A DNA stretch of 64,000 bases from Rathayibacter sp. Leaf185. Its GTDB lineage: Bacteria > Actinomycetota > Actinomycetes > Actinomycetales > Microbacteriaceae. Positions 18,284 to 64,000 of the stretch are shown one piece after another. The stretch spans positions 124,001 through 188,000 of the forward strand of contig NZ_LMPP01000001.1 in assembly GCF_001423885.1 (NCBI RefSeq), read 5' to 3'. A model generated the notes under the pieces. The model was not told the origin of the DNA. It saw only the letters and a program-made list of their open reading frames with translations, and did no database searches. Position 1 is the first letter of the stretch. Each line of letters starts with the position of its first letter. A program made the position numbers and the translations under genes.

Positions 18284-18310
18284 GGGCCGGAGCCCGACTC
18301 TCCGGTTCAG

Positions 18311-18587
18311 GTGCGATCTGCAGGAGCCGGTGCGGTTCGCAGGAGCTGAGGGTGGCCCTGGACCAGAACATGCGGCAGAACGCCCCTCCCGGCAGAGATC
18401 TCCTGCAGATCGCACCGCGACGCCAAGCAACCTTCAAGACCCGGTGCGGTTCGCAGGACCACGTGCGGTTCGCGGGACCACGTGCGGTTCGCAGGACCAC
18501 GTGCGGTTCGCAGGAGTTGCGGGTCATCCGGACCAGAACGTGCGGCAGAACGCCCCTCTCGACAGCGATCTCCTGCAGATCGCACCG
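18311..18587. repeat. Intergenic repeat mosaic (19-nt, 58-nt and inverted 16-nt units)
   Basis: This covers most of the 370-nt gap between two convergent genes. Seen directly: GTGCGGTTCGCAGGA at 18330, 18444, 18463, 18482 and 18501, the last four at exact 19-nt spacing. A 58-nt unit starting GGACCAGAAC lies at 18360-18417 and again at 18530-18587, with six mismatches. GTGCGATCTGCAGGAG at 18311-18326 is the perfect inverse of CTCCTGCAGATCGCAC at 18400-18415 and 18570-18585. No open frame of note. It resembles REP/BIME-type clusters. Confidence 0.9.
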
Positions 18588-25062: not shown

Positions 25063-25222
25063 AACGCGGATCGCCGATCACCGCTCCCCCCTCACGAGGT
25101 CGCAGCGTCGAAGCCGCCCGCGCATGAGTCTGCACGTAGGCGAAGGCGCAGTCGCGGTGGGCGAAGCCCGCTCGCGCTGCGTCGCTCGGCCACCAGAGAC
25201 TGCTGTGCTGCCTCGAGAGGCG

Positions 25223-25306
25223 CCGGATCGTGATGGTGCCCCCTCCGGCGTGGTGGGCGTATGGGCCGCAGGCCCATCGGGCAGAGGGGGCACCATCACG
25301 ATCCGG
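25223..25306. repeat. Nested-hairpin element H0
   Basis: A perfect 23-bp outer stem at 25223-25245 and 25284-25306 (GATCGTGATGGTGCC in the left arm). Inside: a 15-nt linker CGGCGTGGTGGGCGT, a 7-bp hairpin ATGGGCC-GCA-GGCCCAT at 25261-25277, and a 6-nt linker CGGGCA. It begins 28 nt after the guaB stop. The same layout occurs twice near 63 kb with different stems. Confidence 0.9.
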
Positions 25307-25334
25307 TGCCGGCCCTCACCGGACGACCGACGAC

Positions 25335-27246
<1,912 letters not shown>

Positions 27247-60751: not shown

Positions 60752-60948
60752 CATCACGAAGGTGGCGGCCACCCGCCCCGCAGACAATCTTCCGCGGGGC
60801 AGGAAGCACGGATTCCCCGCCGTCGGCGCGGGGGTCCCCCGCGCCGCGCCGAGATGATTGACTGCGGGGACGACGACTCGCGGATCCTGCGAGGAGCGGG
60901 GCGGTGGCGCTTCTCGCGACGAACCGATCCGCACGCCTGGAGCTCTGG

Positions 60949-62868
60949 ATGCCTGACAACCGCGAACGCCTGCTCGAGTACCTCTCGCGCGCGGACGGCT
61001 GGGTGACGGCGCACGAGCTCGCCGACCGGCTCGGAGTGACCACGAGGAGCGTCCGCAGCTACGTCACCGCGGTCAAGGCGCAGGCCGCCCCGCTCGAGCC
61101 CGTCGAGTCCTCGGCGAACGGCTACCGGCTCGCTCGCGACGCCTACGCGGCGTTCGTCGAGGCCCAGCGCCTGCGCGAGGTCGAGCCCGACACCCCCCGC
61201 GACCGGCTTTACAGCATCGTCCGGCGCCTGGTCGACTCCGACGACGGACTCGACGTGGTCGCGCTTGCCGCGGCGCTGTCGGTCAGCGAGTCGACGGTCG
61301 AGGCGGATCTGCGCCGCGTGAAGACCCTCGCCGACGAGGCAGGCCTCGCCCTCGCGCGTCGTGCCTCCTCCGTGCGTCTCGAGGGCAGCGAAGAAGCACG
61401 CCGGAGGCTCATCTCGCGGATGTTCCGCGACGAGAGCGCCCAGGGTGTCTTCACCCTCGACGACGTGCAACGCGAGTTCGCCTCGCCCGGGCTGGGCGCC
61501 TTCAAGACCGAGCTGCTCGCGGCGCTCGAGACGCGCGGCTACTACATCAACGACTACGGCGTGAACAGCGTGCTCCTGCACATCGCCATCGCCGTCGACC
61601 GCGTCTCGCGCGGCATCGGCGACCCCTCGGGCGCCCGCCCCTCCCCCGCCGTCCACGGCGAGCTCGCAGCCGTGCTGGCCGAGCTGGTCGAGCGGCACTT
61701 CGCCACCCGCCTGACCGATGCGGAGCTGGCGCAGCTCGCGATCCTGATGACGACCCGCGTCGCTACTCCGGGACAGAACGAGCCCGTCGCCACCGTCGTC
61801 GAGAACTACGTCGACCCCGCCGACCTCGCCGTCGTGCGCGAGCTCGTCGCCGAGGTGAACAGCGAGTACCTCGTCGACCTCGACGACGAGGGCTTCATCG
61901 TCCGCCTCGCCCTGCACGTGCGCAACCTGATCGCTCGCGCGTCCGAGGGCGGTTACTCCCGCAACCCGCTGACCCGCTCCATCAAGACCAGCTTCCCGAT
62001 GACCTACGAGATCGCCGTGTTCCTCGCGAGCGGGCTGCAGCGTCGCCGCGGCATCGTGGTCAACGAGGACGAGATCGCCTACATCGCTCTGCACGTCGGC
62101 TCGTTCCTCGAGCGGGTCTCGCGCCGCGAGGAGCGCCTCTCGTGCGTGATCGTCTGCCCGAACTACTACGACCTCGCGCACATGCTCCGCCTGCGGGTCG
62201 AGCGCTCGCTCGGCACCGAGGTCGAGGTGCGCTCGCTCATCACGCGGAGCGACGTCGACTGGGACCGCCTCACCGCCGACATCGTCATCACGACCATCGA
62301 CGAGCGGACCTACTCCGACGAGGTCGTCGTCGTGCAGCCGTTCCTCACCGATCACGATGTGGAGGCGGTGCGCCGTGCCATCGCCCGCGTCCGCCGTCAC
62401 CGCCGCCGCGCCCAGATCAAGGACGAGCTGCTGCAGTTCTTCGACGGGGCTCTGTTCTTCCGCAACCTGCACGCGCGCGACGAGTCGGCCATGATCCGCC
62501 TCCTCGGCGAGCGGATGATCGCCCAGGGCATCATCGACGAGGACTACGTCGACGGTGCCATCGAGCGCGAGCGTATGAGCTCCACGGCGTTCACCGACAA
62601 CCTCGCCGTCCCGCACGCGATGGCGATGAGCGCCGAGCGCACCTCGATCGCGATCGTCGTGAACGACGTGCCCATGGAGTGGGGCGAGCAGCGCGTCAAC
62701 GTGATCGCGATGATCGCGTTCGCCTCGGCCGGCCGCAGCACCTTCCAGTCGGTCTTCGACCAGTTCGTCGAGGTCTTCGCCGAGCGCGCCGAGGTGCAGC
62801 GCCTGATCCGCCGCTCCACCGACTTCACCAGCTTCATCGAAGAGCTGGTCCGCGTCTTCGACAGCTGA
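60949..62868 (+). CDS. mtlR: PRD-domain transcriptional regulator of the mannitol operon (MtlR/BglG type)
   Basis: 639 residues. Order: HTH (1-60, NRERLLEYLSRADGWVTAHELADRLG), second HTH (about 90-150), PRD1 (about 190-290), PRD2 (about 300-395), EIIB-like (VIVCPNYYDLAHM) and EIIA-like (AVPHAMAMSAERTSIA, with its His). HPr and EII components phosphorylate such proteins to set mtl transcription. ATG 60949 has GGAG 6 nt upstream; GTG 60904 is an alternative. The symbol is inferred from context. Confidence 0.88.
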   Translation: MPDNRERLLEYLSRADGWVTAHELADRLGVTTRSVRSYVTAVKAQAAPLEPVESSANGYRLARDAYAAFVEAQRLREVEPDTPRDRLYSIVRRLVDSDDGLDVVALAAALSVSESTVEADLRRVKTLADEAGLALARRASSVRLEGSEEARRRLISRMFRDESAQGVFTLDDVQREFASPGLGAFKTELLAALETRGYYINDYGVNSVLLHIAIAVDRVSRGIGDPSGARPSPAVHGELAAVLAELVERHFATRLTDAELAQLAILMTTRVATPGQNEPVATVVENYVDPADLAVVRELVAEVNSEYLVDLDDEGFIVRLALHVRNLIARASEGGYSRNPLTRSIKTSFPMTYEIAVFLASGLQRRRGIVVNEDEIAYIALHVGSFLERVSRREERLSCVIVCPNYYDLAHMLRLRVERSLGTEVEVRSLITRSDVDWDRLTADIVITTIDERTYSDEVVVVQPFLTDHDVEAVRRAIARVRRHRRRAQIKDELLQFFDGALFFRNLHARDESAMIRLLGERMIAQGIIDEDYVDGAIERERMSSTAFTDNLAVPHAMAMSAERTSIAIVVNDVPMEWGEQRVNVIAMIAFASAGRSTFQSVFDQFVEVFAERAEVQRLIRRSTDFTSFIEELVRVFDS

Positions 62869-62898: not shown

Positions 62899-62989
62899 GG
62901 GAGGGTGCTGTCGTCTCCGCCCGCCATCCCGCGCCCTTCGGGCGCCCGCCAGACCCGAGCCAGGCGTGCGGAGACGACAGCACGCTCCC
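62899..62989. repeat. Nested-hairpin element H1
   Basis: Outer stem GGGAG-g-GTGCTGTCGTCTCCGC (62899-62920) with its complement (62968-62989), 21 bp with one mismatch, extended inward by CGCC/GGCG. Inner hairpin GCGCCC-TTC-GGGCGC (62931-62945). On the minus strand the linker is TGGCTCGGGTCTGGCGG, identical to H2. Confidence 0.9.
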
Positions 62990-63048: not shown

Positions 63049-63147
63049 GGAGCGGGTGGGGTGCCTCGTCGCGGCTCCTGGCTCGGGTCTGGCGGGAGCG
63101 CCGCAGGCGCTCGGGAGGGAGCCGTGACGAGGCACCCCGCCCGTTCC
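63049..63147. repeat. Nested-hairpin element H2
   Basis: Outer stem 63049-63078 with 63118-63147, 30 bp including three G-U pairs (arm core GGGTGCCTCGTCGCGGCTCC). Then linker TGGCTCGGGTCTGGCGG, inner hairpin GAGCGCC-GCA-GGCGCTC (63096-63112), linker GGGAG. Opposite orientation to H1. Confidence 0.9.
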
Positions 63148-63191: not shown

Positions 63192-63228
63192 GGATGCGAT
63201 CTGGAGGAGCGGTGTGCGACCCGGAGGT
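63192..63228. repeat. Degenerate copy of the 18.3 kb repeat unit
   Basis: GGATGCGATCTGGAGGAGC followed by GTGTGCGACCCGGAGG aligns with GGTGCGATCTGCAGGAGC and GGTGCGGTTCGCAGGAG at 18310-18345. It touches the map stop codon. Confidence 0.6.
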
Positions 63229-64000
63229 CAGGCGAAGGGGGTCGGCGTGATCCCGTAGGGCGCGAGACCCGCCGCTCCGCCATCGGCGAGCGTGGTGACC
63301 CAGATGCCATCGCGGTGGACGGCGACCGAGTGCTCCCAGTGCGCCGCCATGCTGCCGTCGACGGTGGCGACCGTCCACTCGTCGTCGTGCACGAGGGTCT
63401 CGGCACTGCCCGCCGTGACCATCGGTTCGATGGCGACGACGAGACCGGGCTTCACCTCGGGGCCGCGCTGACGCACGCGGTAGTTGAAGACGGGCGGGGC
63501 CTCGTGCATCGTACGGCCGATCCCGTGGCCGATGTAGTCGGTGAGGATCCCGTACACGCGACCGGTCCTCTCGGCCTCGTCCTCCACGTACTCCTCGATC
63601 GCCGCGCCGACCTCGTTGAGGTGGCGGGCGGAGGCGAGGGCCGCGATCCCGCGCCAGAGCGACCCCTCGGTCACCCGCGAGAGCTCGGTGCGCGCGGCGA
63701 CCTCGTCGGGGCGATCGGGGTCGTCCAGGACGATCGTCATCGCCGAGTCGCCGTTCCAGCCGTCGATCTCGGCGCCGCTGTCGATCGAGACGATGTCGCC
63801 GGCTCGAAGCACGCGCTCCCCCGGGATCCCGTGCACGACCTCGTCGTCGACCGACGCGCAGATCGTGTGCCGGTAACCCGGCACGAGCTTGAAGTTCGAG
63901 TGCCCGCCCAGGGCGACGATCGCCGCCTCAGCTGCGGCATCGAGCTCGAGAGTGGTCACTCCCGGCCGGATGATCGCACGGACGGCGTCGAGCGACGCGG
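63228..64000 (-). CDS. map: Type I methionyl aminopeptidase, N-terminus outside the window
   Basis: 257 residues visible; the open frame continues past 64000 (ASLDAVRAIIRPGVTTLELD before the first in-frame GTG at 63959), so the true start is beyond the edge. Family elements: FKLVPGYRHTICASVDDEVVHGIPG, SIDSGAEIDGWNGDSAMT (metal Asp), GIGRTMHEAPPVFNY, and GLVVAIEPMVTAG (metal Glu). It removes N-terminal methionine. In many actinobacteria map is next to infA; here lepB, the mtl operon and mtlR lie between. Confidence 0.93.
   Translation of the reverse strand, partial: ASLDAVRAIIRPGVTTLELDAAAEAAIVALGGHSNFKLVPGYRHTICASVDDEVVHGIPGERVLRAGDIVSIDSGAEIDGWNGDSAMTIVLDDPDRPDEVAARTELSRVTEGSLWRGIAALASARHLNEVGAAIEEYVEDEAERTGRVYGILTDYIGHGIGRTMHEAPPVFNYRVRQRGPEVKPGLVVAIEPMVTAGSAETLVHDDEWTVATVDGSMAAHWEHSVAVHRDGIWVTTLADGGAAGLAPYGITPTPFA

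Follow-up and report, generated by a model that had tools for sequence, protein, structure and literature searches.

In several actinobacterial genomes, long hairpins with a nearly fixed core stand just past the stop codons of genes; their arms differ from place to place and remain paired, and the question is whether such a fold is kept by selection and, if it is, whether RNA or DNA does the folding. It is raised by a 64,000-nt stretch of Rathayibacter sp. Leaf185 (GCF_001423885.1, NZ_LMPP01000001.1, positions 124,001 to 188,000; hereafter the window), in which an earlier note described three intergenic nested hairpins of one layout, H0, H1 and H2.

Three nested hairpins and family E

All three hairpins were found in place. 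On the plus strand, H0 has an outer 5' arm (25219..25245) that pairs over 27 bp with its outer 3' arm (25284..25310), a 15-nt G-rich linker CGGCGTGGTGGGCGT (25246..25260), an inner hairpin with a GCA triloop (25261..25277) and a short linker CGGGCA (25278..25283). H1 is read on the minus strand, from an outer 5' arm (62963..62989) through a 17-nt linker TGGCTCGGGTCTGGCGG (62946..62962), a 6-bp inner hairpin with a GAA triloop (62931..62945) and a short linker GGGAT (62926..62930) to the outer 3' arm (62899..62925). H2, on the plus strand, has a 30-bp outer 5' arm (63049..63078), a 17-nt linker (63079..63095) identical to that of H1, as had been claimed, a 7-bp inner hairpin with a GCA triloop (63096..63112), a short linker GGGAG (63113..63117) and the outer 3' arm (63118..63147). 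Outer stems are paired at 96% (H0, 27 bp), 93% (H1, 27 bp) and 90% (H2, 30 bp). The position just past stop codons was also borne out. H0 lies 25 nt from the stop, which faces it, of guaB (IMP dehydrogenase, minus strand, 25335..26840, TIGR01302 above cut-off), H1 lies 31 nt from that of a PTS-domain/AcpB-MafR-like regulator (plus strand, 60904..62868, matches below curated cut-offs) previously called mtlR, and H2 lies 81 nt from that of map (methionyl aminopeptidase, minus strand, 63228..63998, TIGR00500 above cut-off, cut by the window's end). RNA folding energies of the three are 6.6 to 9.5 s.d. under those of dinucleotide shuffles, none of 200 shuffles being equal, and these shuffles together with the covariation described below exclude a chance origin.

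H1 and H2 are members of a real hairpin family, here named E, with a 30-bp outer stem, a G-rich linker containing GGGNCTGGC, an inner hairpin and then GGG. The genome of the window (G000) has six copies, in three pairs that each point outward. The E linker, with at most one mismatch, is present in 11 of 15 Rathayibacter genomes, in each of which the arms of one copy or more are paired, and a twelfth (G003) gives a single weaker match to an E model. Searches with covariance models, the check that had been proposed, located E in Microbacteriaceae (8 of 60 and 23 of 299 genomes; 12 of 85 genera) and across the order (6 of 297 genomes, among which three further families are represented). In a phylum scan it was seen in 2 of 396 genomes, both Microbacteriaceae, where absence is weak evidence, with 10 candidates scored per genome. 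Copies in 18 chosen genomes number 44 in G491, 19 in G377, 15 in G238 and 10 in G191, down to 0 in four; counts of copies and of genomes are lower bounds, since between 10 and 150 candidates were scored in each genome in the wide searches. One of the 67 matches on which model R3 was built (L084:1501-1597:+) is the opposite strand of a true copy.

No Rfam 15 family reaches its gathering score anywhere in the window; around H1 and H2 there are eight weak matches, mostly to microRNA models and all far under gathering scores. In the literature we found nothing whose title or abstract opening describes E, which agrees with the previous remark that no family of such form was known, and E looks like an undescribed family. 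Plasmid and phage collections gave no match to H1 or H2 as blastn queries, nor did IMG/VR to one E pattern, and a phage or plasmid origin was rejected on these searches.

The grouping of H0 with H1 and H2 in one family held in part. Layout, position and polarity are common to H0 and E, but the linker is not; since the 15-nt linker of H0 differs and none of the E models R1, R2 and R3 finds it, we judge H0 from its sequence to be a sister type of E with its own conserved core, not a third copy. It is present at guaB in 12 of the 15 Rathayibacter genomes with the same layout and polarity. Its core is nearly constant, two positions varying in several genomes, with one further change in G002 and four in G003, and its arms vary with compensation among these orthologues. 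Mismatches read in the guaB sense are A.C in 5 cases, G.T in 0 and other in 9, from 12 copies that are orthologous and hence non-independent; the A.C mismatches are therefore G.T on the opposite strand, as in E.

By eye, a second palindrome was seen at 25150-25190 of the window and in guaB 3' regions L245-L254, of the form GCAGCGCGAGC..inner stem..GCCGCGACTGCG; its ends are constant, its inner stems vary, and some species have it in tandem.

A constant core and free arms

From 50 Rathayibacter copies, 37 were chosen in which no fewer than 22 of the 30 outer and 6 of the 7 inner positions pair; these align free of gaps as 30 bp, 17 nt, 7 bp/3 nt/7 bp, 5 nt and 30 bp. Thirteen were excluded beforehand: ten because their inner hairpin of 6 bp puts them in another register, and one each for an insertion, for lack of an inner hairpin and for being a near-duplicate (L003). 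As the 37 were preselected for pairing in that register, the pairing of 96.9% of 1369 cells is partly built in. Two-sided changes, however, occur in 29 of the 37 pairs, in 226 cells against 55.1 in shuffles, and the pairing signal is lost when the alignment is slid by one to three columns; neither result is an artefact of copy selection. The earlier note had argued that the inner stems covary and that structure kept as stem sequence changes is the sign of a selected fold; the many additional copies with covarying arms strongly support a kept fold, and covariation supports the inner hairpin as well.

The E core reads CTGG..YGGG-N-CTGGC, followed by a variable inner hairpin or TTTAA and then GGG. 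GGNCTGG occurs in 65 of 67 parsed model matches (L151 and L153, each one base off, were dropped), and its flanking bases, a G on the 5' side and a C on the 3' side, are invariant (65/65); the 67 core rows are made up of 65 of the 67 model matches, after removal of an opposite-strand row and a duplicate locus, and two others. Nearly all G491 copies are without the inner hairpin and have TTAA or TTTAA instead, with L305 and L335 as exceptions by eye. Without thinning, the 44 copies of G491 compared at fixed offsets have an identity of 0.79 in the 17-nt motif, on which their discovery partly relied, of 0.36 in the arm and of 0.26 in the flank. In thinned sets, core and arm identities are 0.91 and 0.38 in G491 (31 copies), 0.99 and 0.47 in Rathayibacter (12), 1.00 and 0.48 in G238 (5) and 0.81 and 0.41 in G377 (5). 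Part of the core conservation follows from the search itself, which used the linker pattern or models derived from the linker.

The outer arms had been described as nearly unrelated, and they do differ by place, but many Rathayibacter copies have CTCGTCGCGG near the core. Fifteen of the 44 G491 copies have arms in common, by eye, and the remaining 29 have a common core and, for the most part, no common arms. Seven of the 15 carry TTATTCA upstream, and four of these also carry TTGAATAA downstream. The copies of a MITE have terminal inverted repeats in common; the two putative terminal halves occur together in 4 of the 44 G491 copies. In L320 and L303, stretches that by eye resemble broken half copies of E precede complete ones. 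Four G-tracts are kept in the cores of both E and H0; that they allow a small quadruplex in the core is an idea, and the RNA model of ViennaRNA with quadruplexes allowed predicted none in the seven cores tried.

Position behind genes and strand polarity

E is a conserved unpaired core on a 20-30 bp stem, strand-polar and behind stop codons, with arms that change and stay paired. Its G-rich strand is the strand that reads CTGGCTCGGG. Among 94 distinct elements, a count that includes orthologues and uses gene calls from a home-made ORF scorer, 44 have within 120 nt only the stop of a gene whose template is the G-rich strand, 5 only one of the opposite sense, 13 both and 32 neither, the scorer finding no fitting stop within that distance. 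Forty-four of the 94 lie between convergent genes, 35 nearer the G-rich-template gene and 8 nearer the opposite gene. The orientation rule is weaker in G491 (14 template-sense, 7 opposite, 8 both and 9 neither; n=38). All 21 of the close pairs listed (less than 700 nt apart) are in minus-plus order, pointing outward. The 37 distinct neighbouring genes (thinned from 57), judged from their sequences alone, have no functional theme.

One site, behind infB, is shared by Rathayibacter, four genomes of three other genera and G429, a member of another family in which the E copy is directly behind the gene. In L085, L088, L128 and L130 the site was recognized by the C-terminal peptide and in two of them confirmed by position. 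Of 50 infB junctions examined, 41 were parsed; two have E, both in Rathayibacter, and many others have, by eye, a shorter GC-rich hairpin. At the map/regulator junction (L259-L273), also read by eye, G000 and G005 carry the two-hairpin unit, in G007 the block is inverted and G004 has a single hairpin; over the stretch read, the unit was unseen in the remaining 11 Rathayibacter genomes. An empty-site comparison at map failed, since intergenic sequences could not, by eye, be aligned between species. Behind infB in other Microbacteriaceae (the infB-rbfA junctions L185, L214, L220 and L221) there is, by eye, a further nested or pseudoknot-like arrangement of an arm, a GAGCGGGGACCCCTACCCCGA-like core and an arm, in which unrelated arms pair as well.

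Stem mismatches on the G-rich strand are G.T in 86 cases and A.C in 11 (2203 pairs, 86 elements). In a strict, thinned set with good flanking pairs the counts are 53 and 12 (p 3e-7), with 33 other mismatches, of which 28 are G.A or G.G; the thinned set, on which the thinned core and arm identities also rest, contains parsed copies only, with near-identical arms removed, and represents G377 by six of 19 places and G238 by six of 15. Covariance-model copies are slightly biased toward G.U over A.C, and Rathayibacter copies found by the linker pattern, which are free of that bias, give 56:8 for G.T to A.C. Oppositely oriented neighbours, which have their locus and the directions of replication and transcription in common, give, each read on its own strand, 18:2 and 10:1 distinct events. 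Since both neighbours are biased, neither the direction of replication nor that of transcription explains the polarity; the bias belongs to the element, and it is the fold of the G-rich strand that is kept. The polarity is alike in copies antisense (21:3) and sense (15:1) to the infB operon, and weaker in G491 (16:7).

The earlier note had left the choice between an RNA and a DNA fold open. In folding models, the pair probability of the inner hairpin on the G-rich strand is 0.13 as RNA and 0.63 as DNA (for 72 of the 86 elements, those with an identifiable inner hairpin), and for H0, H1 and H2 it is 0.00 as RNA and 0.71-0.94 as DNA. The RNA minimum-energy fold of that strand in H0, H1 and H2 omits the inner hairpin, which covariation supports. 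The C-rich strand forms the consensus fold in both models (0.68 as RNA, 0.72 as DNA). Mismatch polarity, together with an inner hairpin predicted in DNA and hardly in RNA, favours DNA, and on these models the fold is probably recognised as folded single-stranded DNA of the G-rich strand.

Known systems, alternatives and the favoured explanation

E fails the tests for an intrinsic terminator, an attC site and a RAYT-driven REP. Intrinsic and bidirectional terminators are stable hairpins behind stops and between convergent genes, as E is, but E usually has no U-tract, has a conserved core in its loop and is of fixed strand polarity. None of the 63 elements from other genomes and 4 of the 31 from G491 have a U-tract at either foot, whereas 22 of 50 ordinary hairpins behind stops in a G491 sample have one; a U-tract terminator was therefore rejected (4/94). 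The attC sites of integrons stand behind genes, and one of their strands folds as DNA, with structure kept, stem sequence free and a variable terminal hairpin; E is alike in its place, free stem sequence and variable terminal hairpin and probably in its single folding DNA strand. The folding strand of attC is the template strand of the preceding gene, a rule that E also follows (44 against 5 of 94; less clearly in G491, 14 against 7 of 38). At its two feet, however, attC carries the R boxes RYYYAAC and GTTRRRY, which are found at both stem feet in 0 of 94 elements (31+6+6+39+12), and identity with attC was rejected on this count; E copies, unlike attC, are single or paired beside chromosomal housekeeping genes.

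REP, BIME and REPIN elements are like E in being intergenic palindromes that form oppositely oriented pairs (PMC3116915, PMC2817692, PMC3733652), and unlike E, whose long arms are mostly without common sequence and which lives in Rathayibacter without RAYT. REP/REPIN-RAYT systems reach very high copy numbers, over 100 per genome (PMC2817692), against 6 copies of E in G000 and at most 44 in the 18 genomes searched. A RAYT-like partner, which the earlier note had suggested seeking, is absent: the Y1 transposase domain (PF01797) has no match in the 15 Rathayibacter genomes and is positive in 5 of 14 control genomes, and a RAYT-driven REP or REPIN in Rathayibacter was rejected. The TM/PIT intrastrand triplex repeats of E. 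coli, 37-nt sequence repeats reportedly without strand-orientation bias, resemble E in being short, intergenic and structured with a strict consensus; E differs in its free arms and its orientation bias (PMC4666352).

Among the alternatives, it is unlikely that E acts as a 3'-UTR structure of the mRNA, in which the transcript carries the C-rich complement, the long hairpin ends or protects the message and the C-rich loop binds a factor. Place and orientation relative to the gene fit, the C-rich strand forms the inner hairpin as RNA (0.68), and at infB E stands where many relatives have the shorter hairpin seen by eye; but mismatches on the C-rich strand are A.C, not G.U, and U-tracts are scarce (0/63 and 4/31, against 22/50). 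RNA from the G-rich strand, made as an antisense transcript or by read-through from the opposite gene, could fold and stop opposing transcription, and both wobble pairing on that strand and the 44 of 94 elements between genes scored convergent would suit it. We consider this improbable, as the inner hairpin has a probability of 0.13 in the RNA model and 0.00 in H0-H2, the polarity is alike antisense and sense to the infB operon, and no -10 box is indicated upstream, where TANNNT counts are 6 (n=31) and 0 (n=39) and those of the opposite strand are 7 and 4.

It is quite unlikely that E is a purely selfish palindromic repeat of the REP or MITE kind with no host role. Its patchy spread, with 0 to 44 copies across 18 genomes, the outward-pointing pairs and the G491 copies with common arms and partial ends (15 of 44, by eye, with TTATTCA in 7 and TTGAATAA also in 4) speak for such a repeat, whereas the want of a Y1/RAYT gene in 15 Rathayibacter genomes, the lack of matches in plasmids and phages (H1/H2 query) or IMG/VR (one pattern), the persistence of copies with compensated arms at shared sites throughout the genus and an infB site common to several genera and two families speak against it. 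Quasi-palindrome correction, in which one arm is copied onto the other and pairing is a mutational by-product of an unselected fold, would suit near-perfect arms with fast turnover, but is highly improbable; it leaves unexplained the conserved unpaired core, the strand-intrinsic polarity in opposite neighbours and the regular geometry.

The explanation that we favour, tentatively and at a little under an even chance, is that E is a DNA hairpin family of the order of Microbacteriaceae whose G-rich strand folds and is read by a putative protein as a boundary downstream of genes; the least certain parts of this explanation are the cis role and the protein. The G-rich strand would fold once single-stranded, through replication, supercoil extrusion or transcription, and would then present the core to the putative DNA-binding protein. 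The most likely cis role would be that of a directional boundary behind the gene, blocking or bounding polymerase or tagging the gene's 3' end. Hairpins may be gained rarely and thereafter maintained by selection on the fold, and in G491 an E subgroup has seemingly spread within a MITE-like repeat. A bolder form of this DNA explanation, which we regard as doubtful, is a strand-addressed fold with a constant core and interchangeable arms, in which the template strand folds behind unrelated genes and a putative protein reads a polar polymerase boundary, with H0 as a second version with another core; if so, the thing selected is the design and not the sequence.

Sequence is what usually defines bacterial intergenic palindromes. 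In E the arms may vary in sequence, and conservation is limited to the fold and a short core, with a strand polarity legible from mismatches. Should a protein read E, the hairpin would have a cis role in chromosomal DNA and represent a new recognition system; the genome with 44 copies and the conserved sites at infB and guaB make E testable. The polarity test, which compares G.T with A.C and takes opposite neighbours as its control, is applicable to other palindromic repeats.

Other repeated hairpins were seen as well. An intergenic inverted repeat, GGTGCGATCTGCAGGAG, recurs between convergent genes at 18310-18416 of the window and at L229:16115-16215, and further repeated long hairpins occur in L227, L228, L240, L242 and L243. 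G491 (L358-L377), at 60% GC, has many more, for example the GTACAAG..CTTGTAC, CGCGAGGGGTCACATATC and TCGCCGCTTCAGCGACATTTCGCCGGT families.
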